Assembly: GCA_029945445.1 (NCBI GenBank)
Contig: JAQSCO010000060.1
Location: forward strand, 372,001-436,000
Reading direction: 5' to 3'
DNA length: 64,000 nt
Source: Lacunisphaera sp.
GTDB lineage: Bacteria; Verrucomicrobiota; Verrucomicrobiia; Opitutales; Opitutaceae
Shown here: positions 8,566 through 39,648 of the stretch, piece by piece
Numbering within the stretch: position 1 is the first letter of the stretch
Layout of the letters: each line of letters begins with the position of its first letter
The notes under the pieces: model-generated
What the model saw: only the letters and a program-made list of their open reading frames with translations
Database searches by the model: none
Told to the model about the DNA's origin: nothing
Translations under genes and position numbers: made by a program

Positions 8566-9042
8566 ATGCCCACCTACAACCTCAAAGTTAACGGGCAGAT
8601 GCGCCCCGTAACGGCGCCGGCCGACACGCCGCTGCTCTGGATTCTCCGCGACCACCTCGACCTCGTCGGCACCAAATACGGCTGCGGCATCGGCCTCTGC
8701 GGCACGTGCACCGTGCACATCAACGGCGCGCCCACCCGCTCCTGCCAGGCGCTTGTGTCCACGGTGTCCGGGGCGGTAATTACAACCATCGAGGGCCTCT
8801 CACCCGACGGCGCACATCCGCTGCAGAAAGCGTGGTGTGATCACGACGTGCCGCAATGCGGCTACTGTCAGGCCGGCCAGATCATGACGGCCGCCGCTTT
8901 TCTCAAGAACAACCCCACGCCCACCGAGGACGAGATCGATGGCGCGATGGCGGGCAACCTCTGCCGGTGCGGCACCTACCTCCGCATCCGCCACGCCGTC
9001 AAGGACGCCGCCGCGGCCATGCAGAAAGGAGGCGGCAAATGA
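8566..9042 (+). CDS. Molybdenum hydroxylase small subunit, (2Fe-2S)2 protein (IorA-like)
   Basis: Electron-transfer subunit of an aldehyde oxidase/isoquinoline 1-oxidoreductase type enzyme. The 158 residues carry both expected clusters: the plant-ferredoxin-type set Cys40, 45, 48 and 60 ([12 protein letters not shown]) and the helical-domain set Cys98, 101, 133 and 135 ([17 protein letters not shown]). The start at 8566 ([10 protein letters not shown]) was preferred over 8542 by family fit. Its stop overlaps the start of the large subunit (ATGA), so the pair is translationally coupled. Confidence 0.92.
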
Positions 9043-15294: not shown

Positions 15295-15570
15295 GGTGGG
15301 TGGGTTGAAAATAGTGACTCCCCATATGTGCCGTGCGCCCCGGGGCTCATGTCCTTTTTAAGTTAAAGGTGGGCACCCCCCGACGGACCCTCTGCCTTCC
15401 GGTTTACGGCCTGGCATCAGCCCGCCTGTCAGCGGTTCCCAAATTATAGCAAAGGCAAAGAGCGTTGTGTGGAGCACCTCGAACACTACAGGGTGTCGGC
15501 AAGGAAGCTACCCCGCCCTTCCCCGCCGTCAAATGCGAACCCCGGCGCGGAAAATTCTCCTTGCGGGCCG
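15295..15570. other. Intergenic region between the SirB2-like gene and the DUF2017-like gene
   Basis: About 276 bases holding the promoter side of the minus-strand membrane-protein gene and the 3' flank of the proS-clpS-DUF2017 chain. An AT-rich patch (CTTTTTAAGTTAAAGG near 15353) stands out from the GC-rich surroundings. No gene or clear terminator is seen. Confidence 0.4.
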
Positions 15571-21943: not shown

Positions 21944-22738
21944 TCAGTGGTCGTTGCGTTCGAAGGAATCGTGCCACTTGTGGAGCACGGCCCAGTTGAG
22001 CCAGGAAACGGCTGCCACGAAGATGAATCCCAGCAGGCAGCTGGTCAACGCCGTGGCGAACAGGGCGGGTATCTTTATCTGGGTATTGTAGCTGTAGACG
22101 AGGAAGCCCAGCCCGCCGGTGCCGCCGGACGAGTTGCCGACCATGTATTCGCCGAAGATCGCGCCGATCGGCGCCAGCGTCGCGGCGATGCGCAGGCCGG
22201 CGAGGTAGAGCGGCATCGCGGCCGGCACGCGCAGCAGCAGCATCTCCTGCACGCGGCTGGCGTTGCACATGCGGAAGAGCGCCACGTGGTTCATGTCGGT
22301 CGAGAGCAATCCCTGCGTCATGTTCGCGACAATCGGAAAATAACTGATGAGCCAGGTGATGGTGATGATGCCCGGCATGCCGGGCCCGGCCCAGAGCATG
22401 ATGATTGGCGTCAGCACGATCACCGGCGTCATCTGCAGCACCAGCAGCCACGGATAAAGCCCCGCGCGCAGCGAGCGTGAGACCCCGAGCAGCAGGGACG
22501 TCGCAAAGCCCAGCGCCGCCGCGAGCACGAATCCGCCCAGCGCACCGACGGCGGTGTGTCCGGCCGCGGCGAGCAGCCGCGCATGTTCATTCCACGCCGC
22601 CGTGATGATCTCGATGGGCGTGGGCAGGATCCAGCTCTGCAGTCCGCTGACCAGCCGCACGCCATACCAGAGGGCGACGAACAGCACGCCGCTCGCGACC
22701 GGCAGGCCCCAGCGCAGGATGGGCGGCAGCTTTTTCAT
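21944..22738 (-). CDS. ABC transporter permease (TauC/SsuC type)
   Basis: Inner-membrane permease, 264 residues with six or so helices. Seen: LPTPIEIITAAW near the N-terminus, VGALGGFVLAAALGFATSLLLG, and the EAA-like loop region MCNASRVQEMLLLRVPAAMPLYLAGLRIAATLAPIGAIFGEYM that contacts the ATPase. The start at 22738 overlaps the stop of the ATPase gene (ATGA). Partner of the flanking ATPase and binding-protein genes. Confidence 0.92.
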   Translation of the reverse strand: MKKLPPILRWGLPVASGVLFVALWYGVRLVSGLQSWILPTPIEIITAAWNEHARLLAAAGHTAVGALGGFVLAAALGFATSLLLGVSRSLRAGLYPWLLVLQMTPVIVLTPIIMLWAGPGMPGIITITWLISYFPIVANMTQGLLSTDMNHVALFRMCNASRVQEMLLLRVPAAMPLYLAGLRIAATLAPIGAIFGEYMVGNSSGGTGGLGFLVYSYNTQIKIPALFATALTSCLLGFIFVAAVSWLNWAVLHKWHDSFERNDH

Positions 22739-23511
22739 GCGGGGACCGGCTCCTCGACCTCGTGCAGCAGGCGCGACACCTCGTTGACCTTCGCCTGGAA
22801 ATCGGGCCGGGCCCGCAGTTCCGGCGGGCGCGGATAGGGGAACTCCACCGCCACCTCGGCGTGCAGGCGCCCGGGGTTCGCGGCCATCACGACGATGCGG
22901 TTGGAGAGGAAAACCGCCTCGGCCATCGAGTGCGTGACGAACATCGCGGTGAACGGCGCCTGCGCGCGCAGCGCCAGCAGTTCCTCGTTCAACCGGTTGC
23001 GCGTCATCTCGTCGAGCGCGCCGAACGGCTCGTCGAGCAGCAGCAGTTGCGGCGCGAGGGTCAGCGCGCGCGCGATCGAGACGCGCATTTTCATGCCGCC
23101 GGAAAGTTGCCGCGGGTAATAGCCGCTCACGGCGCCGAGCCCGACCAAGGCGAGCATCTGCCGCGCCTTGGCCGCCCGCTCCGCCTCCGGCGCGCCGCGC
23201 AGCCGCCGCGGCAGCTCGACGTTCAATTGCGCCGTGAGCCACGGCAGCAGCGTGGCGTCCTGGAAGATGAAGGCCTGCCGGTCGCGCGCCTGCCGCGGTT
23301 TCATGCCCGCGACGCTCAACTCGCCCACCGTCCACGGGCTCAGCCCGGAGACCAGCTTGAGCACGGTGGACTTACCGCAGCCGCTCGGCCCGATGAAGGT
23401 GATGAAGTCGCCCGGCTGCACCGCCAGGCTGATGCCGTCCAGCACGAGCGGGCCGTCGCCATAGCGCTTTTGCAGCGAGGTAAATTTGACGATGGGCGCG
23501 GCAGCCTCCAT
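22735..23511 (-). CDS. ABC transporter ATP-binding protein (TauB/SsuB type)
   Basis: 258 residues. Seen: Walker A GPSGCGKST, Q-loop FQDATLLPW, signature LSGGMKMRVSIARAL, Walker B LLLLDEPFGALDEMTR and switch His in VTHSMAEA; this subtype is typical of nitrate/sulfonate/taurine importers. First gene of the importer operon. Its ATG is only 12 bases from the ATG of the divergent amidase gene, so each ribosome-binding region falls in the other gene's leader or coding sequence. Confidence 0.93.
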   Translation of the reverse strand: MEAAAPIVKFTSLQKRYGDGPLVLDGISLAVQPGDFITFIGPSGCGKSTVLKLVSGLSPWTVGELSVAGMKPRQARDRQAFIFQDATLLPWLTAQLNVELPRRLRGAPEAERAAKARQMLALVGLGAVSGYYPRQLSGGMKMRVSIARALTLAPQLLLLDEPFGALDEMTRNRLNEELLALRAQAPFTAMFVTHSMAEAVFLSNRIVVMAANPGRLHAEVAVEFPYPRPPELRARPDFQAKVNEVSRLLHEVEEPVPA

Positions 23512-23523
23512 GAATCCAACCGA

Positions 23524-24804
23524 ATGGACACAATCGCGCCCAAAACGCCAGCCACTTTGCCGTTCGCGGCGTGGCAGGCCATGGCCCCCGCGGCCGCCGC
23601 GCAGGAGGTCCAGCGCCGCATGGCGGCGCTGCCGGCCGATCTGCGCGCCGCCGCCCTCGCCTGGGTGCGGCCGGAGCAGGCACTGGCGGGCGAACTGGCC
23701 GCGGCCGACCCCAAGCAGCCCTTGTCCGGCGTGCCTTACCTGTTGAAGGATTTATTTGATCTCGCCGGTGTGCCGACGAAGGCCGGTTCCACCTTTCTTG
23801 ACCAGGCCCGCGGCCTGCCGGGGCAGGACGGCGCCCTGCCCCGCCGCCTGCGCGAGCTCGGCGCCGCCTGCGCGGGCAAGACCCACCTCGTGGAATTCGC
23901 CGCCGGCCTCTTTGGCGACAACGCGCACTACGGCGACTGTCCGCATCCGTTTTTTACCGGCCGCCTTTCCGGCGGCTCGAGCAGCGGCTCGGCGGCGCTG
24001 GTCGCTGCGGGAGTAGCGCCCCTCGCCATCGGCAGCGACACCGGCGGCTCGGTGCGCTTGCCCGCGGCGTTCTGCGGGCTGTATGGTTTCCGGCTGACGC
24101 CGCACGGCGAGTTCATCCGTGACGCCATGCCGCTGGCACCGTCGCTCGACACGGCCGGCTGGTTCACGGCCAATGCGGCCGACCTGCTCGCCGCAAACGC
24201 CGCCCTCGTCGGCCCGAGCCGGCAAAGCAAGGAGCCGCGCGGTTGCTTTCTCCCGGCCGGCGAACTGGGCATTCCCTTCGACCCCGCGACCGCCAAGGCC
24301 TGCGACCGAGCGGCCGCTGATCTCAGCAAACCGGCCGGGCGCGACACCACGGCGGCACTCCTCGCCTCGTGGACCGGGGCGATCGAGGCCTACACCGTGA
24401 CGGCGTTGCACGAGGCCCACGCGGTCCATCGTGACTGGCTCGCGCCGTATCACGAACACTACGAGCCCGGCAGCTGGCAGCGCTTTTCCGACGGCGGGCG
24501 TTACCAGCCGGAGCAATTGGCCAAGGCCGCCGCCACGTTCGCCGCGGTGCGCACGACATTCCGCCGGTTCTTCGCCGACTACGACTACCTCATCCTGCCG
24601 GCCTCGCCCTTCCCCGCCCTGCGCAAGGCCGACTGCACGCCCGAGGCGCGGAAGCATATCCTGACCCTCACCACGCCCGCCAGCCTGGGCGGCTTGCCCG
24701 TGCTGACGATCCCGGTGGCGCTGCCATCGGGCCTGACGACCGGCTTGCAGGTTATCGTGCCAACCGCGGACAGCGCGGTCGTGCCCTGGATTCTGAAAAG
24801 GTAG
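23524..24804 (+). CDS. Amidase (amidase signature family)
   Basis: 426-residue amidase using a Ser-cisSer-Lys triad. Seen: catalytic Lys75 in VPYLLKDLFDLAG, the Gly/Ser-rich loop SGGSSSGSAALVA (residues 149-161) and nucleophile Ser176 in SDTGGSVRLPA. It is shorter than many family members at the C-terminus but complete. The ATG at 23524 is preferred; the next in-frame ATG is at 23581. Divergent from the ABC importer and plausibly acts on the imported amide or a related nitrogen compound (inference). Confidence 0.9.
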   Translation: MDTIAPKTPATLPFAAWQAMAPAAAAQEVQRRMAALPADLRAAALAWVRPEQALAGELAAADPKQPLSGVPYLLKDLFDLAGVPTKAGSTFLDQARGLPGQDGALPRRLRELGAACAGKTHLVEFAAGLFGDNAHYGDCPHPFFTGRLSGGSSSGSAALVAAGVAPLAIGSDTGGSVRLPAAFCGLYGFRLTPHGEFIRDAMPLAPSLDTAGWFTANAADLLAANAALVGPSRQSKEPRGCFLPAGELGIPFDPATAKACDRAAADLSKPAGRDTTAALLASWTGAIEAYTVTALHEAHAVHRDWLAPYHEHYEPGSWQRFSDGGRYQPEQLAKAAATFAAVRTTFRRFFADYDYLILPASPFPALRKADCTPEARKHILTLTTPASLGGLPVLTIPVALPSGLTTGLQVIVPTADSAVVPWILKR

Positions 24805-24852: not shown

Positions 24853-25722
24853 CTACCAGCCAAACAACTTCGTCGCGTTGCCTCCGAGCAAAGAGGCCGA
24901 CGCACCGGCGGCCTTCGCTTCCTTGAGCAGGCCGTTGAACTCCGGCGCCACCTCGGTCTTGGGATAAAGGATGAGCGGATAATCCGAACCGAACAGCACG
25001 CGCCCGTGCGGCGCCTTTGCCCACACCTCCGGGCCGTAAAGCAAGGGCGAGGCGGCGGTGTCGAACCAGACATTGGGCAGCGCGGCGGCCTCCCGCGCCC
25101 ACGCCAGCCCGCCGCCCCAGTGCGCGAGGATGAAATTCGTCGCCGGAAATTCCTGCGCCAGCCGGATGAAATCCGCGAGCGGCGTCTCGACGCGCCCGGC
25201 ATACTTGCGGCTGGCCGGGTCCGTGACGTGCAGGTTGACGGGCACCTTCCACTCTGCGGCCAGCGCGAGCACCTGCCGCCACACCGGATCATCCAGCCGG
25301 AAGTGCTGGGAATGCGGCGACAGTTCACCGAAGCCGGACAGCCCGTCGTCCATTGCGCGGCAGGCCTCCTCGAAGGCCGGCGTGCCGGCCTTCGGCTGGA
25401 CCGTCGCGAACGCGGCAAGCCGGTCGGGATGCGCGCGGAGGCAGTCGGCATAGAATTTGTTCTGGGCGACGCACGTCTCGTGTTTTTCCCAATACCACCC
25501 GAGCAGCACGACCTTCGCGATTCCGGCCGTGTCCATGTCGCGCAGCAACTGGTCGACCGAGGGGAATCCCTGCACCGCCGCGCCATCCTTTCTCCGCCGG
25601 CCGCACAGGACGGCCCAGTGCGGTTCATCATGCACCACGGCCCACGCCAGCGGGTCGCGGTTCACCTCCGGCGGATAGAGATGCACGTGGCTGTCGATGA
25701 TCGGCACAGCCTGACGTTTCAT
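24853..25722 (-). CDS. Amidohydrolase (amidohydrolase_2 / PF04909-like)
   Basis: 289-residue TIM-barrel metal-dependent hydrolase or decarboxylase. Seen: IIDSHVHLYPP (the HxH metal motif), a central LHVTDP, ILAHWGGGLAW and a late GSDYPLILYPKTE with the conserved metal Asp. The start is the ATG at 25722; a GTG one codon upstream is possible. It is the last gene of the minus-strand string TonB receptor, SAM hydrolase, NCS2 permease, amidohydrolase. Its substrate may be a purine-ring or other heterocycle product, but the sequence does not say. Confidence 0.85.
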   Translation of the reverse strand: MKRQAVPIIDSHVHLYPPEVNRDPLAWAVVHDEPHWAVLCGRRRKDGAAVQGFPSVDQLLRDMDTAGIAKVVLLGWYWEKHETCVAQNKFYADCLRAHPDRLAAFATVQPKAGTPAFEEACRAMDDGLSGFGELSPHSQHFRLDDPVWRQVLALAAEWKVPVNLHVTDPASRKYAGRVETPLADFIRLAQEFPATNFILAHWGGGLAWAREAAALPNVWFDTAASPLLYGPEVWAKAPHGRVLFGSDYPLILYPKTEVAPEFNGLLKEAKAAGASASLLGGNATKLFGW

Positions 25723-25755
25723 CACGCCCGCCTTCCGGGCAAGCCGGGAACGCCG

Positions 25756-27084
25756 CTAGACGGCCGGCTTGCGCCACCCAAAGCTCAGGACCAGCGCCGT
25801 GAGTCCTCCCGCGGAGATGCTGGACTCCAGCAGTGATTGCACCACCGCCGGCAGGCCGGCCAACATTCCCGGCTGCGTGGGCAGGCCGAGTCCGACGCCA
25901 AGCGATAGCGCCACAATCAAACCCTCTCTTTGCCCCAGCCCCTCGCTGAGAATCAGCCGGATGCCCGACACCGCGACCAGCCCGAAGAGCATCATCGCAA
26001 GCGCGCCGATGACCGGTGGCGGCACGACGGAGATCAGGCGGCCCACTGCCGGGAAAATTCCGAGTAACGCGAGCAGCGCCGCCATGTAGTAGCCGACGCG
26101 GCGGCTGGCGACACCGGTGAGTTGAATGACGCCGTTGTTCTGGGCGTAGGTCGCGCTCGGAAAACCCCCGAACAGCGCCGACACCGTGCTCGTGAGGCCG
26201 TCGGCCAGCACGCCGCCCGACAGGCGCCGCCAATGCTCCGGGCCGGTCGTGGTCAGACCGGAGAGCTGCGAGGTGGCGGTCATGTCGCCGATCGCCTCGA
26301 GCATAGACACGAGGTAGACAAACGCGAACGGCAGCAGCAAATCCCAACGGAAGGCAAACCCGTGCGGCAGCAGCCGGACCGGCGTGAACCAGCTGCCGTC
26401 ACCCGCCGGCGGCGCCGGCAGGGCGCCGAGCAGCGCGCAAACGATCACGCCCCCCGCCACGCCGAGTGCGATGCCGGCAATGCGCGCCCACGCGCGGCCG
26501 ATGGCCTGCGAGACGGTCACGATGACGACCACGCCCGCCCCGACCGCGAGGCCCAGCCACGGCGGGGCATCCGGCCGCAGCGGCGCCGCGAGATTGAAAT
26601 AGGCCGTCGGGATCAGCGACACGCCGATAAGCAGCACGACGATGCCGGACACGAGCGGCGTAAACACCCGGCGCACGTGCCGCAGCAGCGGCGAAAAGAA
26701 CATCTGCAACGGCGCCGCCAGGCAGGACAAGCCGAACATCAAGGCCAGTCCGCCCGCATGCCACGCCTGCGTGAGCACGCCGATGAAAGCGAAGCTGGTG
26801 CCCGTGACACTCAGCAGGCCCGACCCAACCGGACCACGCCGACGACATTGCAGGAAAGTGCCGAGCGCCGAGGAGAGCAACGCGAGGCTGATGAAGTAGG
26901 CCGTGTCGGCCGGCGCAAATTTCAGCGCGCCCGCCAGCAGCAGCGGCGGCGTGATGGTGCCCACGACCATCGCGGCCACATGCTGCGTGCCGACCAGCAG
27001 GGCCGTGACCGGCGGCACGCGGTCCTCCAGTCCGTAGACAATCGGGGAGGAACTCGCGACGGGCGACGGCGGCAGGTCTTCCAT
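25756..27084 (-). CDS. NCS2 nucleobase permease (xanthine/uracil family)
   Basis: 442 residues, about 12-14 membrane segments. Seen: TQHVAAMVVGTITPPLL at TM1 (the His-bearing QH motif), FVYLVSMLEAIGDMTATSQL in TM8 with the substrate-site Glu/Asp, and the NCS2 signature AQNNGVIQLTGVASRRVG. The signature resembles proton-coupled xanthine/urate carriers more than uracil carriers, so xanthine or urate is the likelier cargo. It starts 12 bases after the SAM hydrolase stop on the same strand and is followed by the amidohydrolase. Confidence 0.92.
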   Translation of the reverse strand: MEDLPPSPVASSSPIVYGLEDRVPPVTALLVGTQHVAAMVVGTITPPLLLAGALKFAPADTAYFISLALLSSALGTFLQCRRRGPVGSGLLSVTGTSFAFIGVLTQAWHAGGLALMFGLSCLAAPLQMFFSPLLRHVRRVFTPLVSGIVVLLIGVSLIPTAYFNLAAPLRPDAPPWLGLAVGAGVVVIVTVSQAIGRAWARIAGIALGVAGGVIVCALLGALPAPPAGDGSWFTPVRLLPHGFAFRWDLLLPFAFVYLVSMLEAIGDMTATSQLSGLTTTGPEHWRRLSGGVLADGLTSTVSALFGGFPSATYAQNNGVIQLTGVASRRVGYYMAALLALLGIFPAVGRLISVVPPPVIGALAMMLFGLVAVSGIRLILSEGLGQREGLIVALSLGVGLGLPTQPGMLAGLPAVVQSLLESSISAGGLTALVLSFGWRKPAV

Positions 27085-27096
27085 GAGTTAGCTGCG

Positions 27097-27996
27097 TCAG
27101 GGTGCGCGTTCGATGCGCGCGGTCCAGCCGCCGCCCGAGGACAGGCCGTGTTTCTGGGAGAAGCTGCCCATGTTCAGAGCCAAAGCCACGTTGAGCAGGC
27201 TGTTCAGGTAGAGCAGCGGCTCGCCTTCTTTCACGTCGCCGAAAGTCCGCACATACGGCAGCACGCCGCGGTAGGCTTCCTTGCCGTCGTGGAAAATCGT
27301 GACCGTGAATTTGTCCCCGAAGGCGGGCTTCAGCTCGTTGAAGAGCGTGTCCGGAATGTTGGTCCAGACATTCCCATAGTGGAAATCAACCATCGGGATC
27401 GTGCCGCGCAGCACGCCCTTTTCCAGCGCCGGCTTCTCGTAGGGCAGACTGACGACCTTGGGCGCGAGCAGCGGGCCGACTTGCTCGAACGTGATGGTGC
27501 CGGACGCGAGCCGCGCGCCGGTGTAGGCGTAGATGTCGCGGCCGTGGAATGTGTAGCTTTTCTCCGAGCCGGCGCGCCGGTTCAGGTTCTCGTCGATGCG
27601 GCGGACGGCCGCGATGCCGAGATCCTCCGCCACGAGCGTCCAGGTGCCGTTGTCCGGCCCGACGAAATAATGCCCGCTCTTCGTCTGCAGCACGATCGAC
27701 GCGCGCTCGGTGCCGACGCCCGGATCCACGACCGAGATGAACACCGTGCCGGCCGGCCAGAACGGCGCGCTTTGTTTGAGGCGGTAGGCCGCCTCCCAGA
27801 TGTCATAGGGCGTATTCTCGTGGCTCAGGTCGAAGATCGGCAGGTGCGGGTCGACGCCGACCGCGACGCCTTTCATCGCCGCGACGGCGCCATCCTTCGT
27901 GCCAAAGTCGGTCTGGATGACGAGCGCGTGGTCGGCGGCACGGGCCGCGCCGGCCGTGAACAGGGCGAGCAGCAAAGGCAGGAATAATTTTCTCAT
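27097..27996 (-). CDS. Exported SAM hydrolase / SAM hydroxide adenosyltransferase (DUF62)
   Basis: Family members hydrolyse S-adenosylmethionine to adenosine and methionine. 299 residues with a clear signal peptide (MRKLFLPLLLALFTAGAARA), unusual for this normally cytosolic family. Seen: TDFGTKDG (29-36), VVDPGVGTERAS (89-100), FVGPDNGTW (111-119) and FHGRDIYAY (150-158), all family motifs. A strong terminator lies only about 12 bases before its start, with no obvious Shine-Dalgarno site. Expression therefore probably depends on readthrough from the TonB receptor gene. If active outside the cytosol it would release adenosine next to the exported deaminase encoded at 33174. Confidence 0.88.
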   Translation of the reverse strand: MRKLFLPLLLALFTAGAARAADHALVIQTDFGTKDGAVAAMKGVAVGVDPHLPIFDLSHENTPYDIWEAAYRLKQSAPFWPAGTVFISVVDPGVGTERASIVLQTKSGHYFVGPDNGTWTLVAEDLGIAAVRRIDENLNRRAGSEKSYTFHGRDIYAYTGARLASGTITFEQVGPLLAPKVVSLPYEKPALEKGVLRGTIPMVDFHYGNVWTNIPDTLFNELKPAFGDKFTVTIFHDGKEAYRGVLPYVRTFGDVKEGEPLLYLNSLLNVALALNMGSFSQKHGLSSGGGWTARIERAP

Positions 27997-28010
27997 GGCA
28001 GAGCGGATGA

Positions 28011-28043
28011 AGAAAACCGCCGGGAGACAAGCTCCCGGCGGTC
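28011..28043 (-). terminator. Rho-independent terminator after the TonB receptor gene
   Basis: Perfect 11-bp stem ACCGCCGGGAG (28016-28026) / CTCCCGGCGGT (28032-28042), 5-base loop, then on the minus strand TTTTCTTC. It separates the receptor gene from the SAM hydrolase gene, whose ATG lies just beyond, so it may act as an attenuator. Confidence 0.8.
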
Positions 28044-28076
28044 GAGGTTGGCTGATTCAGGCGGAGGCGGACGCGC

Positions 28077-30440
28077 TCAGTAGTTGTATTTGACGTTGAG
28101 CGAGAAGGTCGTGCCGGCGAGCGCGAGGATCGAGCCGTTGCCGTAGACGGAATTCGGCGGGGCCCAGTTTTTCCGGTCGGTCACGTTGCCCACGCTCAGG
28201 CGGAATTCCCACTCCTTGCGGATCTTGTAGTTGAGGCTGGCATCAATCTCATACTGCCAGGGAATGACCAGGGTGGCCGCGACGTTGTTGTTGATCGGGC
28301 TCGTGACGAGGGCGTTCGTCGAGAAGCCGAAGCCGTTGTCGAACGTATACGAGACCAGTCCGTTAAAGCTGCTGCGCGGGACGCCGCTGGTGCGGGTCTC
28401 GGGCGCGAAGGTGATCGCCTCGCCGCCGGTCAGCTCGCTCGTGCCGCCGAACATGCCGTATTGAAACTGGAAGCCGGCGGTCTTGGCGTCGATGTAGGAG
28501 TAGGACGCCGTGGCGTAGAGGTGCTTGTTCGGCTGGTAGTTCAGCTCAACCTCGACGCCCTTGGTCTTGTATTCGACGATGCTCGTGCTGCTGGTCGTCT
28601 TGGCCGTGCGCTTCTGCTGGAAGTAGGCCAGGTTGAAGAAGAGCTGGCCCTTCAGCAGCGCGTATTTGGTGCCCGCCTCGAAGAGCGTGGCCGGCTGCTG
28701 GAAGTTCTCCTTGTCGAGCGCCGTGCCCGCGCCATTCCACCCGGTGATGCCGCCGCCGTTGCCCACCGCCCCGGAGATGTTCTTGCTGTAATTGTAGGTC
28801 ACGTAGGCGGAGGCGGTGTCCGACATCTTGTAGACCAGGCTGGCGTTGTAGTTCGGGTTGGTGATGCTGATGTCCGCCGTGGGATGCGTGGACTTCAGCG
28901 GCTCGCGCACGTGGGCCTTCAAATAGTCGAAGCGCGCACCGGTCACGAGATTGAGCTTGCCCGACACCTTCCAGGTCGCCTGGGCGAAGGGGCCGAAGGT
29001 GGTGCCGTGGCTGTCGTTGGTGTCACCGTTCGCGGTGCCGGCGATGCCGTAGCGCCCGGGCCAGCCGGGGACGGGGATATCGGCGCCAAAATCAAAGAAG
29101 TTGGGCGCCGGAAAATTCACCGACTTGTAGACGTCGATGAAATTATGGTCCTTGGTCAGGTCCCAGGCATTGGCCGGCTCGAACGAGTAATCATCGTAGG
29201 CCAGCGTGCGCTGGTAGCGCAGGTCGAGGCCGGCGTTCAGGGAGACGAACGGCTTGGTGATGATGAACTCCGTGCGGTTCTCGGCGAACCAGGAGGGGTC
29301 GATGATCTCGGAATAGTAGTAGGTGCTGAGGGTGTTGCGCGCCGTGTAACTCCAGAACGTGTTGTTGACGACCTTGAGGTCGGGCCCGGCGAGGAAGGTC
29401 TGGATGGCCTGCATGTTGAACTCGCGGCCGACCGAATGATTGCTGGGCTTGAGGAGCCGGTTATGGCGGCTGATCGGCACGGCGGCGCCAAAGGCGATGG
29501 TGTTCCCCACCACGGTGGTGCCGCCGACGTTCTTGGCATTCTGCGGATCCGCCGCGGTGGCGGCGGTGCCGCCGTTGACGTTGGTGCCGGTGATGTAGAG
29601 CAGGTGGTCGATCAGGGCCTGGGTCGGGCGGTTCATGCCCCAGTTTTCGGTGTAGCGGTAGAACGAGGCCGAGGCGTTGAAGAAGACCTCGTATTTCTCG
29701 GTGGGCCGGAAGATCAGCGCCCCGTAGAGCGAGTGGTTCTTGTTATAGTAGTCCCACCAGAAACCCTTGCTGTCGGTGCCCGAATAGCTGAAGCGGTAGG
29801 CCAGCTCCTTGGAGACCGGGCCGCCGACGTCGATGGTCCATTCCTTCTGGGAGTAGGAGCCGATGGTCGCGCTGACCGAGCCCTTGAAGCCGTCGAAATA
29901 GGGCCGCTTGGTGACGAGGTCGACAAAGCCGCCGACATACATGGAGGCGCCCTGCACCGCGGTCGCCGGGCCCTTCACGATGTTGACCGACTCGACGGAG
30001 TTGAAGTCGAGCGGCAGGCCGTTGCCGTTGGAAGTGATGCGCCCGCGCACGCCGTTGATGAACAGGTCGGCCGTCTGGGCGCGGATGCTCGGGTTGGAGG
30101 GCGCGCCGAAGTTCGTCGTCGTGTAGGAGCTGGAGGTGAGCTTGGCGAAATCCAGCACGCTCGAGATGTTGATGTCGCTCAGCTGCTGGCGCGAGATGAT
30201 GGTGACGTTGCGCGGCACATCGATGATGTTGTCGTCAGTGCCGAAGACGGAGTTGAACGGCCGGGACGTGGGCATGATCTGCTGCTCGGGGGCGACCCCG
30301 CGCACGCTGAACTTGTCCAGTTCCAGGATTTCCTCCTTGGCCGCGGGGGCGGCGGCGGGAGCGGTTTGCGCGGCCATTCGGCCGGTGACGCTGGCGGCAA
30401 AGAGCACGGCCAGCAACGTGCGGAGCAAGTTGGTGTTCAT
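28077..30440 (-). CDS. TonB-dependent outer-membrane receptor
   Basis: 787-residue outer-membrane active transporter. Seen: signal peptide (MNTNLLRTLLAVLFAASVTGRMAAQ), a TonB-box-like region EEILELDKFSV, a plug domain (DVPRNVTIISRQQLSDINISSVLDFAK; NGVRGRI; VESVNIVKGPATAVQGASMYVGG) and a 22-strand-type barrel ending in the aromatic terminus SLNVKYNY. The start at 30440 is set by the signal peptide; the frame is open upstream to 30563. First gene of the minus-strand string that includes SAM hydrolase and a nucleobase permease, and divergent from a NUP-family gene, so a nucleoside or nucleobase cargo is inferred. Confidence 0.93.
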   Translation of the reverse strand: MNTNLLRTLLAVLFAASVTGRMAAQTAPAAAPAAKEEILELDKFSVRGVAPEQQIMPTSRPFNSVFGTDDNIIDVPRNVTIISRQQLSDINISSVLDFAKLTSSSYTTTNFGAPSNPSIRAQTADLFINGVRGRITSNGNGLPLDFNSVESVNIVKGPATAVQGASMYVGGFVDLVTKRPYFDGFKGSVSATIGSYSQKEWTIDVGGPVSKELAYRFSYSGTDSKGFWWDYYNKNHSLYGALIFRPTEKYEVFFNASASFYRYTENWGMNRPTQALIDHLLYITGTNVNGGTAATAADPQNAKNVGGTTVVGNTIAFGAAVPISRHNRLLKPSNHSVGREFNMQAIQTFLAGPDLKVVNNTFWSYTARNTLSTYYYSEIIDPSWFAENRTEFIITKPFVSLNAGLDLRYQRTLAYDDYSFEPANAWDLTKDHNFIDVYKSVNFPAPNFFDFGADIPVPGWPGRYGIAGTANGDTNDSHGTTFGPFAQATWKVSGKLNLVTGARFDYLKAHVREPLKSTHPTADISITNPNYNASLVYKMSDTASAYVTYNYSKNISGAVGNGGGITGWNGAGTALDKENFQQPATLFEAGTKYALLKGQLFFNLAYFQQKRTAKTTSSTSIVEYKTKGVEVELNYQPNKHLYATASYSYIDAKTAGFQFQYGMFGGTSELTGGEAITFAPETRTSGVPRSSFNGLVSYTFDNGFGFSTNALVTSPINNNVAATLVIPWQYEIDASLNYKIRKEWEFRLSVGNVTDRKNWAPPNSVYGNGSILALAGTTFSLNVKYNY

Positions 30441-30469
30441 TTTGTGGGTTGGGTGGCGTGGGACGGCAT

Positions 30470-30499
30470 TTTCTAAGCAAGCCATGTGCCAGTTCACAA
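30470..30499 (-). promoter_or_regulatory. Candidate promoter of the TonB receptor gene
   Basis: On the minus strand TTGTGA (30499-30494), 18-base spacer, TAGAAA (30475-30470), about 30 bases before the ATG. It sits in the 121-base gap shared with the divergent NUP gene, which is the natural control point of the purine locus. Confidence 0.4.
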
Positions 30500-30561
30500 G
30501 GGGTTTCATCGCGCACAATATCTTGCCGACCCGGTATGAACCCTGCTGACTACTCCGGTTC

Positions 30562-31641
30562 ATGCGACCGCTTCATCTGGCCCAGTGTCTTCTTGTTTTC
30601 CTCGCCGTAAGCCCGCCCGTTTTCTTACCGGCCGCCGAGGCCGTCATTCGCCCGCGGGTCGTGATCGTCACGATGTTCGAGCTCGGCGCCGACACCGGCG
30701 ACCAGCCCGGGGAATTCCAGTTCTGGGTCGAGCGCGAGCATCTCGACCGCGTCATTCCCCTTCCCGCCGGCTACCACGACGTGCGCGTCAACGCCGACGG
30801 CACGGTGCTCGCGATTCTCACCGGCCAGGGCAACACCCGCTCCGCGACCAGCATCATGGCCCTCGGGCTCGATCCGCGCTTTGACTTTTCCAAGAGCTAC
30901 TGGCTCGTCGCGGGCATCGCCGGCCTGGATCCGGCCGTGGCGTCCGTCGGCTCCGCTGTTTGGACCGATTACGTGGTCGAGGGCGACCTGGCGCACGAGA
31001 TCGATGCCCGCGAAATCCCGACGGACTGGAAAACCGGCTATGTCCCGTTGCGCAAAAAGCAGCCCTACGAACTACCCTTGCAACCGGCTGACGAACTGGT
31101 GGACCATGTCTACCAGTTGAATCCCGCCCTGCTGCACTGGGCCTTCGACCTGACCAAGGACACCCCGCTGGCCGACAGCGCCGCCGTGCGCGAATTCCGG
31201 GCCCGCTACGCCGACTCGCCAGCCGCCTTGCGGCCCGCGTCCGTGCTGATCGGCGCCAACCTCGCCTCCAGCACATATTGGCACGGTAAACTGCTCAATG
31301 ACTGGGCCCACGACTGGGTGGCCTACTACACCGGTGGCCGCGGCCGTTATGCCACCACCGCGATGGAGGACACCGGCACTTTGCGGGCGCTGACCAACCT
31401 GGCGCGCGCCGGCCGGGCGGATTACAGCCGGGTGATGGTGCTCCGCACCGCCAGCAACTTCGATATGCAGCCGCCTGACCTCACCGCCGCGCAGAGCATG
31501 AGTGGCGAGAAGATCGGCCATTACTCCGCCTATATACCATCCCTCGAGGCCGCGCACGCCGTCGGCCGCCGTGTGCTGCACACGCTCCTGGAGGGTTGGG
31601 CCAGATTTGAGACCACCCCACCCGCGGCCCCGGCCAAATAA
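30562..31641 (+). CDS. Exported NUP-family protein (purine nucleoside permease / nucleosidase-like)
   Basis: 359 residues with an N-terminal signal peptide (MRPLHLAQCLLVFLAVSPPVFL...). Seen: RVVIVTMFELGADTGDQPGE at the start of the mature part, LTGQGNTRSATSIMALGLDPRFD, AGIAGLDPAVASVGSAVW and a late TASNFDMQPP, matching the NUP family (PF06516). The family name comes from fungal purine nucleoside permeases, but these proteins lack membrane helices and resemble the nucleoside phosphorylase fold. A periplasmic nucleoside-binding or nucleoside-cleaving role is the better guess. Followed after 18 bases by a purine permease gene. Confidence 0.85.
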   Translation: MRPLHLAQCLLVFLAVSPPVFLPAAEAVIRPRVVIVTMFELGADTGDQPGEFQFWVEREHLDRVIPLPAGYHDVRVNADGTVLAILTGQGNTRSATSIMALGLDPRFDFSKSYWLVAGIAGLDPAVASVGSAVWTDYVVEGDLAHEIDAREIPTDWKTGYVPLRKKQPYELPLQPADELVDHVYQLNPALLHWAFDLTKDTPLADSAAVREFRARYADSPAALRPASVLIGANLASSTYWHGKLLNDWAHDWVAYYTGGRGRYATTAMEDTGTLRALTNLARAGRADYSRVMVLRTASNFDMQPPDLTAAQSMSGEKIGHYSAYIPSLEAAHAVGRRVLHTLLEGWARFETTPPAAPAK

Positions 31642-31659
31642 TCGTCACCGCCCCGCCCC

Positions 31660-32997
31660 ATGCTGAACCGCCTCTACAAGCTCGACCAGTCCGGCACGAC
31701 CGTCGGCCGTGAACTCCAGGCCGGCGCGACGACCTTCGCCGCGATGGCCTACATCCTCGCGGTCAATCCCGCCATCCTCGCCGCCGCCGGCATGCCGCAG
31801 CCTGCCCTCATCACGGTCACCGCGATCACCGCTGCGATCAGCACGCTGCTGATGGGTTTCCTGACCAACTATCCCCTGGCCCTCGCGCCCGGCATGGGAA
31901 TCAACGCCTACTTCGCTTTCACCGTCTGCCTCGGGCTCGGCGTTTCATGGCAGTCCGCCCTCGGGCTGGTCTTCGTGAACGGCTGCATCTTTCTCGCCCT
32001 CTCGGTCAGCGGCGTCCGCGAGAAGATCATCGCCGCCATCCCGCACCAGCTGAAGCTCGCCATCACCTGCGGCATCGGGCTCTTCATCGCCTTCATCGGC
32101 CTGAAAAACGGCGGCATTGTCGTCGCCAGTCCCGCCACTTTCGTCTCGCACGGCGACTTCGGCACGCCGGCGGTGCTGCTCTGCTTCGGCGGCATCCTGC
32201 TGACCGCCGTCCTCATCGCCCGGCGCGTGCCGGGCGCGATCATCCTCTCGATCCTCGCGGTCACCGCCGCCGGGCTGTTCGTCACCGACGGCAAGGGCGG
32301 CCATGTCACCACGATGCCGGCGGCGCTGTTCTCGCTGCCGTCCTCGCCCGCGCCCACTTTCCTGCAGCTCAACTTCGACCTGCTGCTGCATGATTTCGGC
32401 AAGGCCCTGCCGATCATCCTCACGCTGCTGCTCGTGGACATGTTCGACAACATCGGGACGCTCATCGGCGTCACGCAGCGCGCCGGTTTGCTCGACCAGG
32501 ACGGCAAGCTGCCCAAGGCCGGCCGCGCGCTCGTGGCCGATTCGATCGCCGCCATCCTCAGTTCGCTCATGGGCACCTCGACGGTCGTCAGCTACATTGA
32601 GTCGGCCTCGGGTGTCGAGGCCGGCGGCCGCACGGGCCTGACCGGCGCCGCCACCGCGGTGCTCTTTCTCCTGGCGCTGTTCCTCACGCCGGTGATTCTC
32701 GCCATCCCGGCAGCCGCGACCGCACCGGCGCTCGTGATCGTCGGGGTCTTCATGTTCCAGTCGGTCGCGCAGCTGAAGCTCGACGATTTCGCCGAGACGG
32801 CCCCGATCTTCCTGATCATCGCGGGCATTCCGCTCAGCTTCAGCATCGCCGAGGGCATCGGCCTCGGGCTCATCGCTTACGCCGTGCTGCACCTCGCCAC
32901 CGGCCGCGCCCGACAGGCCTCGCCGCTGACCTATCTCCTCGCGCTGATCTTCAGCCTGCACCTGCTCCGCGCCATCCTCGCCCGGCTTTTCCCATAG
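31660..32997 (+). CDS. AzgA-like adenine/guanine/hypoxanthine permease
   Basis: 445-residue inner-membrane carrier of the AzgA branch of NCS2. Seen: GRELQAGATTFAAMAYILAVNP, ALAPGMGINAYFAFTVCLG, LLLVDMFDNIGTLIGVTQRAG (substrate-site acidic residues) and SSLMGTSTVVSYIESASGVEAGGRTGLT, all diagnostic. Imports hypoxanthine, guanine or adenine with protons, by family. It sits directly downstream of the NUP-family gene and upstream of the exported adenosine deaminase, so its likely cargo is the base released outside the inner membrane. Confidence 0.94.
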   Translation: MLNRLYKLDQSGTTVGRELQAGATTFAAMAYILAVNPAILAAAGMPQPALITVTAITAAISTLLMGFLTNYPLALAPGMGINAYFAFTVCLGLGVSWQSALGLVFVNGCIFLALSVSGVREKIIAAIPHQLKLAITCGIGLFIAFIGLKNGGIVVASPATFVSHGDFGTPAVLLCFGGILLTAVLIARRVPGAIILSILAVTAAGLFVTDGKGGHVTTMPAALFSLPSSPAPTFLQLNFDLLLHDFGKALPIILTLLLVDMFDNIGTLIGVTQRAGLLDQDGKLPKAGRALVADSIAAILSSLMGTSTVVSYIESASGVEAGGRTGLTGAATAVLFLLALFLTPVILAIPAAATAPALVIVGVFMFQSVAQLKLDDFAETAPIFLIIAGIPLSFSIAEGIGLGLIAYAVLHLATGRARQASPLTYLLALIFSLHLLRAILARLFP

Positions 32998-33018
32998 CCG
33001 CGCCTCCGCCGGTTCTGG

Positions 33019-33074
33019 ATGTCAACTAATAGTATACTAGAGTTCCCGGGCCTTAGTATACTATTAGTTGACAT
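33019..33074. repeat. Inverted pair of 21-bp AT-rich arms, element A
   Basis: Left arm 33019-33039 ends TAATAGTATACTA; right arm 33054-33074 starts TAGTATACTATTAG and ends TTGACAT. The arms are perfect reverse complements, and the spacer is 14 bases containing CCCGGGCC. It lies between the AzgA-like and adenosine deaminase genes. The hairpin would be strong despite its AT content. The same arms recur at 39590-39648 in opposite arrangement. Confidence 0.85.
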
Positions 33075-33173
33075 TAGATCAGGCGGACGGAAGCGGCGGC
33101 GCCGGGCGGGGAAGCGGCGCCGGGGCCGACTTTCAGGTTGCCTGTAACCTAGCCGAGGCCCGTAAATCATCCC

Positions 33174-34574
33174 ATGCGATATCTCCCCCTCCTGCTCGCC
33201 CTCTGCGGTGCGGCCTGCGCGGCAACTTTTGCCGAGCGCTTCGAGGCCATCAAGCACACCGCCAAGCCCGCCGAGCTCTACGCCTTCCTCTATGCCCTGC
33301 CCAAGGGCGGCGACCTGCACAACCACAGTGGCGCCGAGCGCCCCGAGTGGCTCTACGCCATCTGCACCGACCCGGCCCGCACCGGCGGCGAGACCTTCTA
33401 CACCCGCGCGCATTTCGCCGCCGCGCCCGACGCCATCGCCCCGGGCCAGCGCTTCCACAACATCCGGCAATATGCCTACGACAAGCTGACCGGCGAGGCC
33501 CGCACGGAATACGTCCGGCTCGACGCCCTCACGCCGGCCGAACGCGCCGCCTGGTGCAACAGCCTCCGCCTCGATGCGCCCGGCGAAGGCCGCGAAGAAT
33601 TCTTCAGCAACATCTGGCCGCGCCGCGGCGGGATCGACAGCTCCCTGCCGGTCAACACCGAGGCGCTCGTCGAAAACATCAAGGCCTTCGGCGCCGAGCA
33701 CCTCGCCTACCTCGAGACGCAGTTCAGCGTCGATCGCATGACGGCCAACGATGGCAGCCTGATCCCCGTCGAGGACGCGGTGGCCTACGTCAAGCACCGG
33801 CTCGCCCAGCCCGATGTCGCCAGCTCGGGCGTCACCGTGCGCTTCCAAAAGGCCCTCCTGCGCTTCCTGCCCAGCTCCGAGGCCCGGCTCGCCGAGTCCT
33901 ATGCCTTCGTCGACGCCCACCGCGACCTCTGGGTCGGCCTCAACCTGGTCGGCATCGAGGAGAACGGCCACGGCTACCCGGCGCGTTTCCTCGAAACCTT
34001 CCGCGCATTGCGCGTCCGCTACCCGACGCTCGCCCTCTCCATCCACGCCGGCGAGATGGACGGCAACGACTCGCATATCCGCGACACGCTGCTCCTCGGC
34101 GCCAGCCGCATCGGCCATGGCGTCAACATTCTCAAGGACCCCGACACCCTGCTGCTGCTCCAGCAGAGCCGCCGCGTGCTGATCGAGATCAACCTGATCT
34201 CCAACCGCCTGCTCGAATACACCCCCGACCTCACGAAGCATCCGTTCCCCGAGCTGCTCCGCACCGGCGTGCCCGTCTGTCTTAACACCGACGACCGCGG
34301 CATGTGGGACTCGAACCTCACCGACGAATACTACACCGCCGTCACGACGTTCAACCTGTCGTGGGACGAGATTGTGCTGCTCGGCCGCAACTCCCTCGCC
34401 CGCTCCTTCGTCCAGCCCGAGGTGAAGACCAGACTCCTCGCCGACTACGACCGCGCCGTCACGGACTTCGCGGCGAAGTATCTGCCGGCCGACTCCCTCG
34501 CCCAGCTCGCGGGCGTGAAGCCCGTGGCCTACGGTTACGCGAAGCGCACCTGGGGCTTCGATTTCGTGCAATAA
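33174..34574 (+). CDS. Exported adenosine deaminase-family protein
   Basis: Deaminates adenosine to inosine. 466 residues, longer than cytosolic Add and with a signal peptide (MRYLPLLLALCGAACA), as in secreted ADGF-type deaminases. Zinc and catalytic motifs are intact: GDLHNHSG (His49, His51), SIHAGEMDG (His291, Glu294), RIGHGVNI (His315) and LNTDDRG (Asp373-374). It carries an extra N-terminal region (about 60-170) relative to Add. Same strand as the NUP-family and AzgA-like genes but separated from them by the palindromic element A. Confidence 0.92.
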   Translation: MRYLPLLLALCGAACAATFAERFEAIKHTAKPAELYAFLYALPKGGDLHNHSGAERPEWLYAICTDPARTGGETFYTRAHFAAAPDAIAPGQRFHNIRQYAYDKLTGEARTEYVRLDALTPAERAAWCNSLRLDAPGEGREEFFSNIWPRRGGIDSSLPVNTEALVENIKAFGAEHLAYLETQFSVDRMTANDGSLIPVEDAVAYVKHRLAQPDVASSGVTVRFQKALLRFLPSSEARLAESYAFVDAHRDLWVGLNLVGIEENGHGYPARFLETFRALRVRYPTLALSIHAGEMDGNDSHIRDTLLLGASRIGHGVNILKDPDTLLLLQQSRRVLIEINLISNRLLEYTPDLTKHPFPELLRTGVPVCLNTDDRGMWDSNLTDEYYTAVTTFNLSWDEIVLLGRNSLARSFVQPEVKTRLLADYDRAVTDFAAKYLPADSLAQLAGVKPVAYGYAKRTWGFDFVQ

Positions 34575-35075: not shown

Positions 35076-35507
35076 TTACCTCGCCGTCTTCGCGCTGACC
35101 ACGAGCAGGGGAATGTTCGTGTTGTGGCGGACCTTGTCGATGGTGCTGCCGTGGATGAGGTCGCCGATCAGTTTGTGCCCGTGCGAGGCCAGCGCAATGA
35201 GGTCGCACTGGCTCGAGACCGCGATCTTCACGATCTCGTTGGGCGGGTTGCCCAACGCGAGCACCGTGTCCACCTGCAGGCCCGTCCCGCGGAGCCGGTC
35301 CGCGGTGCTTTCCAGGTAATCGCTGTCGGCCCGCATCTCGTCGGACTCGGCCAGCTTGAGCTGCTCGAAGTTGCGCGCGGCCCAGCCGTCGGCGACATGC
35401 AGCAGCAGCAGTTCGGCCTTGAAATGCGCGGCCAGCTGGCTGATGTGCGGCAGCAGCCGTTCATCGGCGGGCCCGTTCTCGAGGGCGACGAGGATCTTCC
35501 GATACAT
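35076..35507 (-). CDS. Universal stress protein, UspA family
   Basis: 143-residue single Usp domain: MYRKILVALENGPADERLLPHISQLA at the N-terminus, LLLLHVADGW, and the C-terminal nucleotide-loop region DLIALASHGHKLIGDLIHGSTIDKV followed by IPLLVVSAK. The loop keeps the G-x2-G-like and GST elements, so ATP binding is possible. It starts 2 bases after the Nramp transporter stop and is clearly co-transcribed with it; Nramp-Usp linkage occurs in other bacteria. Confidence 0.92.
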   Translation of the reverse strand: MYRKILVALENGPADERLLPHISQLAAHFKAELLLLHVADGWAARNFEQLKLAESDEMRADSDYLESTADRLRGTGLQVDTVLALGNPPNEIVKIAVSSQCDLIALASHGHKLIGDLIHGSTIDKVRHNTNIPLLVVSAKTAR

Positions 35508-35509
35508 GG

Positions 35510-36874
35510 TCAGGTGCCGCCCGTCAGGCCGGCGAAGTCCAGCAGCAGTTTCACGTTGAGGCCGATGATGACCAAAGTGACGGTCCAGCCGAGCAATTTA
35601 ATCCACCACGGGTTGACGAACTCGCCCATTTTGGCCCTTTCCCCGGTGAAGCGCATCAGCGGCCAGCAGGCGAAGCCGAGCTGCATGCTGAGACACACCT
35701 GGCTGGCGACGAGCAACGCGGTGGCCTTGTGCTCGCCATAGATCCCGATGACCACCAGGGCCGGCACCAGGGCAATCGCCCGGGTGATGAGCCGGCGCAG
35801 CCACGGCCGCAGCCGGATGTTAAGAAAACCCTCCATCACGATTTGCCCGGCGAGGGTGCCGGTCAGGGTCGAGTTTTGCCCCGACGCCAGCAGGGCCACG
35901 GCGAAGAGGGTGCTGGCAAAAGTGACCCCCATGACGCCATCGAGCAGGTGGTAGGCCTGCTGGATCTCCCCCACGTTTTGGTGGGCCGTGCCGTGGAAGG
36001 CGGCGGCAGCCACGATGAGGATGGCGCCGTTGATGAACAGCGCGAACATCAGGGCGACCGTCGAGTCGATGGTCGCGAACTTGATGGCCTCGCGTTTGCC
36101 ACCGGCGGTCTGCTCGTAGCGGCGCGTCTGCACGATGGACGAATGCAGGTAGAGGTTGTGGGGCATCACGGTCGCGCCGAGGATGCCGATGGCCACGTAG
36201 AGCATGGCGGGGTTGCGGAGGATCTCCGCCGTCGGCACGAAGCCCCGGGCAATTCCGCCGAGGTCGGGCCGGGCGAGGAACAGCTCCACCGCAAAGCAGC
36301 CGCCGATCGTCAGCATCAGGGTGAGCACGACCGCCTCGAGGTAACGGAAACCCTTGTGCTGCAGCAGGAGAATAATCAGCACGTCGACGACGGTGATGAT
36401 GCAGCCCCACAGCAGCGGAATGCCGAAGAGCAGTTGGAGCGCGATCGCGGACCCGATGATCTCCGCCAGGTCGCACGCCGCGATGGCCAGTTCGCACAGC
36501 ACCCACAGGAACCACACGACCGGCCGCGGGTAATGGTCGCGGCACGCCTGCGCCAGGTCGCGGCCGGTGGCGATGCCGAGCTTCACGCACAGGTGCTGCA
36601 GCAGGATCGCCATCAGGTTCGAGATCAGGATGACCGACAGCAGCGTGTAGCCAAATTGCGACCCGCCCGCGAGGTCCGTGGCCCAATTGCCCGGGTCCAT
36701 GTAGCCGACCGCCACCATGAAGCCGGGACCCGAGAATGCGAGGAGCTTGCGCCAGAAGCCCGTGCCCGTCGGCACGGCGATGCTCCCGTGCGACTCGGGC
36801 AGGCTCAACGCCACGCGGGCGTGCCGCCAGCCGGGCTCGCTTGTCGTGGTCTTGGTGGGCAGCGGGTCGGTCAT
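35510..36874 (-). CDS. mntH: Nramp divalent metal transporter (MntH-like)
   Basis: Proton-coupled Mn2+/Fe2+ importer of the inner membrane, 454 residues and about 11 helices. Metal-site motifs are intact: [12 protein letters not shown] (Asp60, Asn63) in TM1 and [13 protein letters not shown] in TM6 (the MPH motif). The cytosolic N-terminus is about 45 residues, longer than E. coli MntH. Order on the minus strand: outer-membrane MetA-type protein, mntH, uspA, so the three probably form one unit under the operator-like site at 37705-37737. Confidence 0.94.
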
Positions 36875-39580: not shown

Positions 39581-39648
39581 ACGGGGCCTTAGTATACTAT
39601 TAGTTGACATCAAGTGGGCCCCGTCTAATGTCAACTAATAGTATACTA
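39581..39648. repeat. Inverted pair of 21-bp AT-rich arms, element B (arms reversed)
   Basis: Arms at 39590-39610 (TAGTATACTATTAG...) and 39628-39648 (...TAATAGTATACTA), identical to those of element A but in the opposite order. A second nested palindrome, ACGGGGCC (39581-39588) / GGCCCCGT (39617-39624), would compete with the AT-rich hairpin. The right arm supplies the TAG stop codon of the MFS gene. It lies between the convergent ABC permease and MFS genes. Confidence 0.85.

Follow-up and report, generated by a model that had tools for sequence, protein, structure and literature searches.

Our analysis concerns a divergent gene locus at positions 24853-34574 of a 64,000-nucleotide stretch of Lacunisphaera sp. 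DNA (hereafter the window; 372001-436000 of contig 60, in a genome of 4.17 Mb in 66 contigs), and indicates that this locus is probably a purine nucleoside scavenging system acting across the cell envelope. The first-pass annotation had described seven genes of stated families here, and both the open reading frame (ORF) positions and Pfam bear this out, each gene being found at the place and on the strand given.

24853-25725, minus strand: amidohydrolase (PF04909), without signal peptide; Pfam
25756-27084, minus strand: NCS2 xanthine/urate-type permease (PF00860); Pfam
27097-27996, minus strand: exported S-adenosylmethionine (SAM) hydrolase (DUF62; PF01887 and PF20257); Pfam
28077-30440, minus strand: TonB-dependent outer-membrane receptor (PF00593 and PF07715), start revised from 30563; Pfam
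30441-30561, no strand: divergent intergenic region of 121 bp, expected site of both promoters
30562-31641, plus strand: exported NUP protein (PF06516), proposed periplasmic purine nucleosidase; Pfam
31660-32997, plus strand: AzgA-like permease (PF00860), proposed hypoxanthine importer; Pfam
33174-34574, plus strand: exported adenosine deaminase (ADA; PF00962); Pfam

For the TonB receptor the start at 30440 is preferred over that of the longest ORF, so that 121 bp separate the divergent TonB and NUP starts. A sigma-70 consensus scan of this gap gave no match, and no riboswitch or other RNA family reached its gathering score within the locus, with none in the gap itself. On the plus strand NUP and AzgA are 18 bp apart, and AzgA and ADA 176 bp; on the minus strand the gaps are 80 bp (TonB-SAM hydrolase), 12 bp (SAM hydrolase-NCS2) and 30 bp (NCS2-amidohydrolase).

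Export signals on three proteins

Signal peptides had been claimed for NUP, ADA and the SAM hydrolase, and the claim stands: they recur in relatives, and cytosolic neighbours lack them. Export was judged by a crude rule of our own (charged start, hydrophobic stretch and small-residue cleavage site), not by SignalP, on tblastn copies of at least 40% identity in the loci fetched from other genomes (numbered with L), the window being excluded. Signal-peptide-like N-termini were present in 116 of 124 NUP copies, 10/10 SAM hydrolases and 14/20 ADAs, the distinct copies being slightly fewer than counted as L051 and L040, and likewise L052 and L038, are the same genomes. None of 33 cytosolic controls from the same loci passed (amidohydrolase 0/12, amidase 0/13, ABC ATPase 0/8), and the permeases did so in 1/11 (NCS2) and 2/32 (AzgA) cases.

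Five of the six ADAs that fail the rule carry a twin-arginine motif (L077, L098, L102, L104, L106), and the sixth (L082), read from an internal start, has a hydrophobic N-terminus; the ADA of L094 passes and has a twin-arginine motif as well. The N-termini thus suggest a Sec route for ADA in some genera and a Tat route in others, an argument for selection on its non-cytosolic location. Eight NUPs fail. Six come from loci where NUP pairs are fused, the failing copy there being probably the inner domain, one (L059) is lipoprotein-like by eye, and one (L054) is without explanation. The fusions are single ORFs of about 700 residues, with two NUPs in tandem, in L077, L094, L098, L102, L104 and L106. 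The lipobox-like N-terminus of the L059 protein (9830-10990, plus strand; by eye) suggests a membrane-anchored lipoprotein form. An adenine deaminase (family c17) was also considered as an exported enzyme and dropped, since only one of its 11 copies, that of L061, has an exported-like start by eye.

NUP as a candidate nucleosidase

PF06516, the family called purine nucleoside permease, matches NUP with 368.7 bits (cut-off 27) and is its sole Pfam match at E ≤0.001; the Nuh-type family PF01156 gave none. The membrane-spanning segments expected of a transport permease are not found in NUP: by the hydropathy rule, it has a single 19-residue window above 1.6, at residue 3 inside the signal peptide, against 12 hydrophobic segments in the AzgA-like permease. 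The fold points elsewhere. An AlphaFold model of NUP from 16 sequences (pLDDT 80.9, pTM 0.84) retrieved, in the best 50 Foldseek rows, only methylthioadenosine/S-adenosylhomocysteine (MTA/SAH) or futalosine nucleosidases (top E 5.0e-10, probability 1.00). In VIA-align it superposed on the Vibrio MTA/SAH nucleosidase (MTAN) with Z 22.4 and a root-mean-square deviation (rmsd) of 3.0 over 228 aligned residues, and on the periplasmic Aeromonas MTAN with Z 22.4 and rmsd 3.1 over 230 residues, at a sequence identity of about 12% to such enzymes. Profile comparison of NUP with PF01048 proteins was insufficient alone to reveal this homology, which came from the fold. A phmmer search of NUP against the PDB gave nothing at E ≤10. 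Its profile gave two antibody chains only, at E about 0.7, which we attribute to chance.

With the ME and R..SD motifs of a PF01048 relative anchored to solved MTANs, a weak alignment pairs M268-E269 of NUP with the MTAN ME, and R295-S298-N299 with the R..SD. E51 is constant in 125/125 copies, R295 and S298 in 124/124 and E269 in 123/124, and position 299 is Asn in 120/124, Asp in three and Ser in one. In mammalian purine nucleoside phosphorylase, Asn at this position goes with a 6-oxopurine preference; Asn299 could mean such a preference or weak activity. We propose, from the modelled fold, that NUP is an exported nucleosidase misnamed as a permease. Cleavage of nucleosides by NUP, as previously suggested, is thus a candidate activity backed by fold and context.

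Gene families, export signals, fold and linkage were computed, and from them we infer the substrates, the direction, the periplasmic rather than surface location, the enzyme activities and the order 'deaminate, then cleave' of the following pathway. The TonB receptor would admit nucleosides, the exported ADA would convert adenosine into inosine in the periplasm, and NUP would split the nucleoside into ribose and base, with inosine giving hypoxanthine. The AzgA-like permease would then import hypoxanthine, and the NCS2 permease probably imports xanthine or urate. In this lineage, the exported SAM hydrolase may supply adenosine from outside SAM. Inside the cell, HPRT or a xanthine dehydrogenase-like protein could use the base.

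The AzgA-like permease matches plant AZG1 by phmmer (E 8.1e-65), and the three PDB sequences at E ≤0.001 are AZG1 (two) and AZG2, so that it is nearer to AZG than to the UapA/UraA types; no NCBIfam model matched it at E ≤0.001. The NCS2 permease passes TIGR00801 (296.3, cut-off 291.8), fails the pbuX subfamily (344.9, cut-off 414.15), and has uric acid-xanthine permease as its closest solved structures. ADA reaches 114.6 bits against PF00962 (cut-off 27) and carries the HxH, HAGE, GHG and TDD motifs, with residues 49, 51, 291, 294, 373 and 374 identical in 20/20 copies. It fails the equivalog TIGR01430 (125.4, cut-off 216.55), its Pfam match and most of its PDB matches start only past about residue 160, and its AlphaFold model (6 sequences) was too poor for use (pLDDT 61.6). 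A second PF00962 protein of the genome is encoded elsewhere on this contig, beyond the window.

As for the fate of the base, HPRT is encoded within the window (52448-52945; 182.7 bits, cut-off 150), and contig 51 encodes a xanthine dehydrogenase-like protein that combines FAD and molybdenum domains, its FeS match being sub-threshold in the fetched part. For 8-oxoguanine deaminase the genome holds weak partial matches and no full match, so this branch, which is seen in relatives, appears to be absent here. A PF02608 profile search of the genome gave no match, the family being ill chosen for the purpose. Two further PF01048 proteins of the genome have no visible signal peptide by eye, and one of them looks like a cytosolic purine nucleoside phosphorylase.

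Relatives and rival explanations

Of the family's 252 genomes, 107 have NUP. Of 100 stretches fetched, chosen from the listed places, 98 hold NUP, and L144 and L145 are flank extensions without it. A partner was counted as linked within 10 kb of NUP at a tblastn score above 70 bits; the TonB counts include distant receptors of this large family, contig edges lower the counts in several regions, and the genomes are related, so the counts are not independent. Among the 13 regions whose NUP is at least 65% identical to that of the window, AzgA is linked in 12, TonB in 11, SAM hydrolase in 9, ADA and amidase in 8 each, NCS2 in 7 and amidohydrolase in 6. At 58-65% identity (33 regions) the counts are AzgA 7, TonB 5, NCS2 4, ADA 1 and SAM hydrolase 0; at 50-58% (17 regions) AzgA 7, TonB 7, ADA 6 and SAM hydrolase 0; and below 50% (35 regions) AzgA 2, TonB 2, NCS2 1, and ADA and SAM hydrolase 0. 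These graded counts place the NUP-AzgA-ADA-TonB association in a subset of NUP copies. The association recurs in several genera of the family with shuffled gene order; in L038, for example, NUP diverges from the SAM hydrolase, with TonB placed between AzgA and ADA, and such variation means that linkage is kept through rearrangement. Conservation of the neighbourhood, whose absence from relatives had been named beforehand as evidence against the pathway, thus holds for the closest NUP copies. It also extends further than first stated, with RidA, an ABC transporter and an amidase recurring in relatives.

Side by side with the NUP locus, ExbB/ExbD/TonB-like genes (by motif) occur in L077, L094, L098, L104 and L106, and MotA_ExbB and DUF3450 proteins in L065; such genes might serve as an energiser dedicated to the receptor.

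Some relatives carry PF01048 proteins beside NUP or between NUP and AzgA (family c58 in L033, L041, L074, L078 and L115; family c108 in L068, L083 and L120), and those with a clear start have signal peptides by eye. The c108 protein of L120 passes TIGR01704 (82.2, cut-off 73.8). L195, from a genome (G050) not among the NUP-positive ones, has a signal-peptide-bearing PF01048 protein (by eye) with AzgA, SAM hydrolase and TonB. We read such proteins as substitutes for NUP, in favour of its being an enzyme. An 8-oxoguanine deaminase lies near NCS2 in L074 (681.3 against 532), and other recurrent neighbours are HPRT-like, adenine deaminase-like (below cut-off), GTP cyclohydrolase II-domain, formamidase-like and Rieske proteins. 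Family c119 stands near the NCS2 permease in L033, L047 and L115, with Rieske and VanA_C domains in L033; its role might possibly be methylpurine demethylation, which we offer as an idea only.

Three loci of other groups, one from Sphingomonadales and two gammaproteobacterial, show NUP in the company of purine-catabolic genes; the loci of other groups are all single metagenome-assembled contigs. In Sphingomonadales (L060), one run holds the FAD subunit of xanthine dehydrogenase (XDH), XdhB (1193.5 against an NCBIfam cut-off of 849.5), XdhC, LysR, an exported-looking ADA, TonB, NUP, 8-oxoguanine deaminase (679.1 against 532) and NCS2. The Kangiellaceae locus (L059) has UPRTase, NCS2, a CNT nucleoside transporter, cytidine deaminase, TonB, NUP, a ureide-type permease, ribokinase and amidohydrolase. 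The ribokinase (336.3 against 299.65) is the second gene downstream of NUP, which suits free ribose as product; given the CNT transporter, uptake of intact nucleosides probably occurs there too. A gammaproteobacterial locus (L063) combines an IU nucleoside hydrolase and NUP with 8-oxoguanine deaminase (642.6 against 532), XDH subunits, XdhC, guanine deaminase (513.4 against 375.4) and urate oxidase.

Several observations weigh against the proposed pathway. Most NUP copies of the family are without these partners (AzgA in 28/98 regions, ADA in 15/98), and NUP stands without partners in L054, L058 and L062 (by tblastn only, with no family scan). In L055 (Bryobacterales), AzgA, amidohydrolase and a molybdenum hydroxylase are otherwise accompanied by peptidases and a glycosidase, and the separate IU nucleoside hydrolase of L063 counts here as well. 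The export counts come from the crude rule given above, and the residue match of NUP with MTAN rests on the shared fold and weak hhalign profile alignments (probability 1.9% local and 10.6% global, and 6.0% in another). Furthermore, the Asn of NUP replaces Asp197 of MTAN, and an Asp197Asn MTAN was crystallised with substrate bound, according to the structure title; NUP could therefore be weak or act otherwise. Lastly, with a cytosolic-looking PF01048 protein in the genome, intact nucleosides would also be usable once imported.

This last point, together with the family name, favours a different view of NUP, namely that it binds nucleosides or assists their uptake (as a periplasmic binding protein or permease) and that intact nucleosides are imported and cut inside. 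We consider this improbable, as NUP has no hydrophobic segment past its signal peptide, has a nucleosidase fold in which E51, E269, R295 and S298 hardly vary, and is accompanied by two permeases that both belong to base-permease families. In the Candida NUP report, an adenine-auxotrophic yeast with this NUP grew on adenosine, which its authors read as transport and which likewise tells against our proposal, and the strain stayed resistant to toyocamycin (PMC9431476); the growth data also fit a secreted enzyme freeing adenine, the base then being taken up, and the resistance would be explained by a secreted nucleosidase if 7-deaza analogues are uncuttable. If the Candida NUP cuts adenosine, a 6-oxopurine preference is not valid for every member of the family.

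That NUP is a phosphorylase yielding ribose-1-phosphate, and not a hydrolase yielding ribose, also appears unlikely to us. NUP does share the superfamily, its profile having been placed in the Purine and Uridine Phosphorylase superfamily (PMC9815663). The best 50 Foldseek rows are nevertheless hydrolases, and a uridine phosphorylase appears in VIA-align only at rank 50 (Z 18.7), although a shared fold cannot settle this difference. The ribokinase two genes past NUP in L059 speaks for free ribose, and ribose-1-phosphate would presumably require a sugar-phosphate importer.

The place of the SAM hydrolase in the pathway is supported in part: it is exported, but of the 78 genomes that have it no more than 10 show it close to NUP among the listed places, and elsewhere it lies mostly beside housekeeping-like genes. 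It scores 175.5 bits against PF01887 and 79.3 against PF20257, with Asp91, Arg98 and His151, which we take to be the catalytic triad, identical in 10/10 copies; it fails the (R)-SAM hydrolase equivalog NF058624 (129.3, cut-off 350). PF01887 occurs in 78/252 family genomes, and in the window's genome once, at the locus. At least 10 of the 78, from three genera, have it within 5 kb of NUP (eight of the window's genus, the window included, as well as G122 and G046); distances were measured in 16 genomes and the others judged by eye (different contigs), some weaker NUP places lying outside the list. A signal peptide was found by rule in 23 of 30 copies, two of which are NUP-linked; L150, L167 and L173 appear exported by eye, L154, L163 and L176 form a short clade without signal peptide, and L164 is unreadable. 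In 20 regions around SAM hydrolases not from NUP loci, the neighbours by eye were M23 peptidase in 13, HemW in 12, PriA in 11 and DXS in 8, with AzgA in 2 (L195, L200), TonB in 1, and NUP, ADA and NCS2 in 0.

Such surroundings, mostly M23 peptidase, HemW and PriA look-alikes, and the wide export of the enzyme would suit an exported SAM hydrolase that is merely parked at the locus and serves metabolite repair or another envelope task, unrelated to purine scavenging. In one report, the role of DUF62 is called open, (R,S)-SAM hydrolysis being known for a Salinispora enzyme (PMC12120602). We give this possibility considerable weight while leaning somewhat away from it: besides the NUP-linked copies in three genera, the enzyme accompanies AzgA, TonB and a PF01048 protein bearing a signal peptide in a genome that is not among the NUP-positive ones, lies in L200 at a distance of about 4-7 kb from the AzgA, amidohydrolase and RidA genes, and has adenosine, the substrate of ADA, as its known product. 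From these distributions, we take the SAM hydrolase to be an old exported family member recruited to the locus in some lineages.

The amidohydrolase, in contrast, cannot be placed in the purine pathway to which it had been assigned. It has no PDB match at E 1e-5 and travels with the following genes.

23524-24804, plus strand: amidase (PF01425); linked in relatives
22735-23511, minus strand: ABC transporter ATPase; Pfam, recurs in relatives
21944-22735, minus strand: ABC transporter permease; Pfam, recurs in relatives
20869-21930, minus strand: NMT1/THI5-like solute-binding protein; PF09084, 116.6 bits
20277-20798, minus strand: RidA/YjgF-type protein, end of the module; PF14588 and PF01042, recurs in relatives

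By phmmer the solute-binding protein matches 4nmy and 3ix1, the latter an N-formyl-aminopyrimidine (FAMP) binder, and its resemblance to THI5/ThiY-type pyrimidine binders points away from purines. These genes may well, on a slightly favourable balance, form a separate salvage unit for a nitrogen heterocycle (pyrimidine-like) that is merely adjacent. L200, where AzgA, amidohydrolase, solute-binding protein and RidA lie together and NUP was not detected in the stretch, agrees with this, but the module repeatedly adjoins NUP and AzgA in several genera.

Other features of the window were recorded in passing. A 20-base arm occurs twice, inverted, at 33020-33073 within the gap between AzgA and ADA, and recurs at 39590-39648; when as many as 2 mismatches are allowed, it has 23 forward and 23 reverse matches in the genome, and 9/21 genomes of the genus match. 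This dispersed hairpin looks like an element of the REP or MITE type. A weak mir-726 match at 33003-33089 lies on the palindrome far under its gathering score and was dismissed as chance. An Nramp-like and universal-stress-like gene pair (by eye; 35076-36874, minus strand) stays beside the ADA end in L038, L042, L047 and L091. Further off are a molybdenum hydroxylase (MoCoBD_1/2; 8856-11255, plus strand) with a twin-arginine-like motif in its N-terminal region, and a 6S RNA (15315-15497, minus strand; 51.4 bits against 46.4).

Significance and known systems

COG5042, "Purine nucleoside permease", appears in a survey's list of transporters related to dissolved organic carbon (PMC2847192). If NUP is indeed a secreted nucleosidase, transporter counts in such surveys and the Candida transport model would change. 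The superfamily link of NUP is already published; the reading of exported bacterial NUPs as nucleosidases from their context is new within the literature searched. Extending it, we tentatively suggest, though we think it somewhat doubtful, that the whole PF06516 family, fungal as well as bacterial, consists of exported purine nucleosidases, that in this lineage an exported DUF62 enzyme, an exported ADA and NUP form a line turning extracellular SAM and adenosine into hypoxanthine ahead of import, and that Asn299 makes bacterial NUP favour 6-oxopurines so that ADA must act first. Such an assembly line, if true, would give some DUF62 enzymes a nutritional role, and the locus offers a testable setting for DUF62 function, which in some members may be one not yet recognised (PMC12120602).

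No description of this locus was found among the open-licence PMC matches listed, which is weak evidence of absence. In Pseudomonas aeruginosa, periplasmic Nuh cleaves adenosine and inosine, the products are imported and growth on nucleosides is supported; which proteins let nucleosides through the outer membrane and bring adenine in had yet to be identified in that system (PMC5437708). Periplasmic nucleoside hydrolysis in this species is also covered elsewhere (PMC8863103), and extracellular DNA degraders with nucleosidases and transporters have been described (PMC8289736). The present locus differs from the Nuh system in having a PF06516 candidate with an MTAN fold, an exported ADA, and adjoining TonB and base-permease candidates. 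We take Nuh to be a member of PF01156, a family with no match among the 10 window proteins scanned.

The fold of NUP is like that of the periplasmic MTA/SAH nucleosidase of Aeromonas hydrophila (PDB 5b7q and 5b7p; Z 22.4 and 22.1), from which it differs by an identity of only 13% and by Asn at the Asp197 position. With the (R)-SAM hydrolases (DUF62/PF01887), the locus enzyme shares the two domains as well as the Asp, Arg and His residues, but it bears a signal peptide and scores below the equivalog cut-off. ADA shares the metal and catalytic motifs of the adenosine deaminase/ADGF family (PF00962) and, in contrast, would be exported by Sec or Tat. The two permeases match the AzgA/AZG and NCS2 base-permease families and differ in sitting with exported nucleoside-processing enzymes. 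Periplasmic nucleoside cleavage itself is thus known already; what we rate as new are the exported ADA, the NUP-family cutter candidate, the adjoining import candidates and the exported SAM hydrolase.

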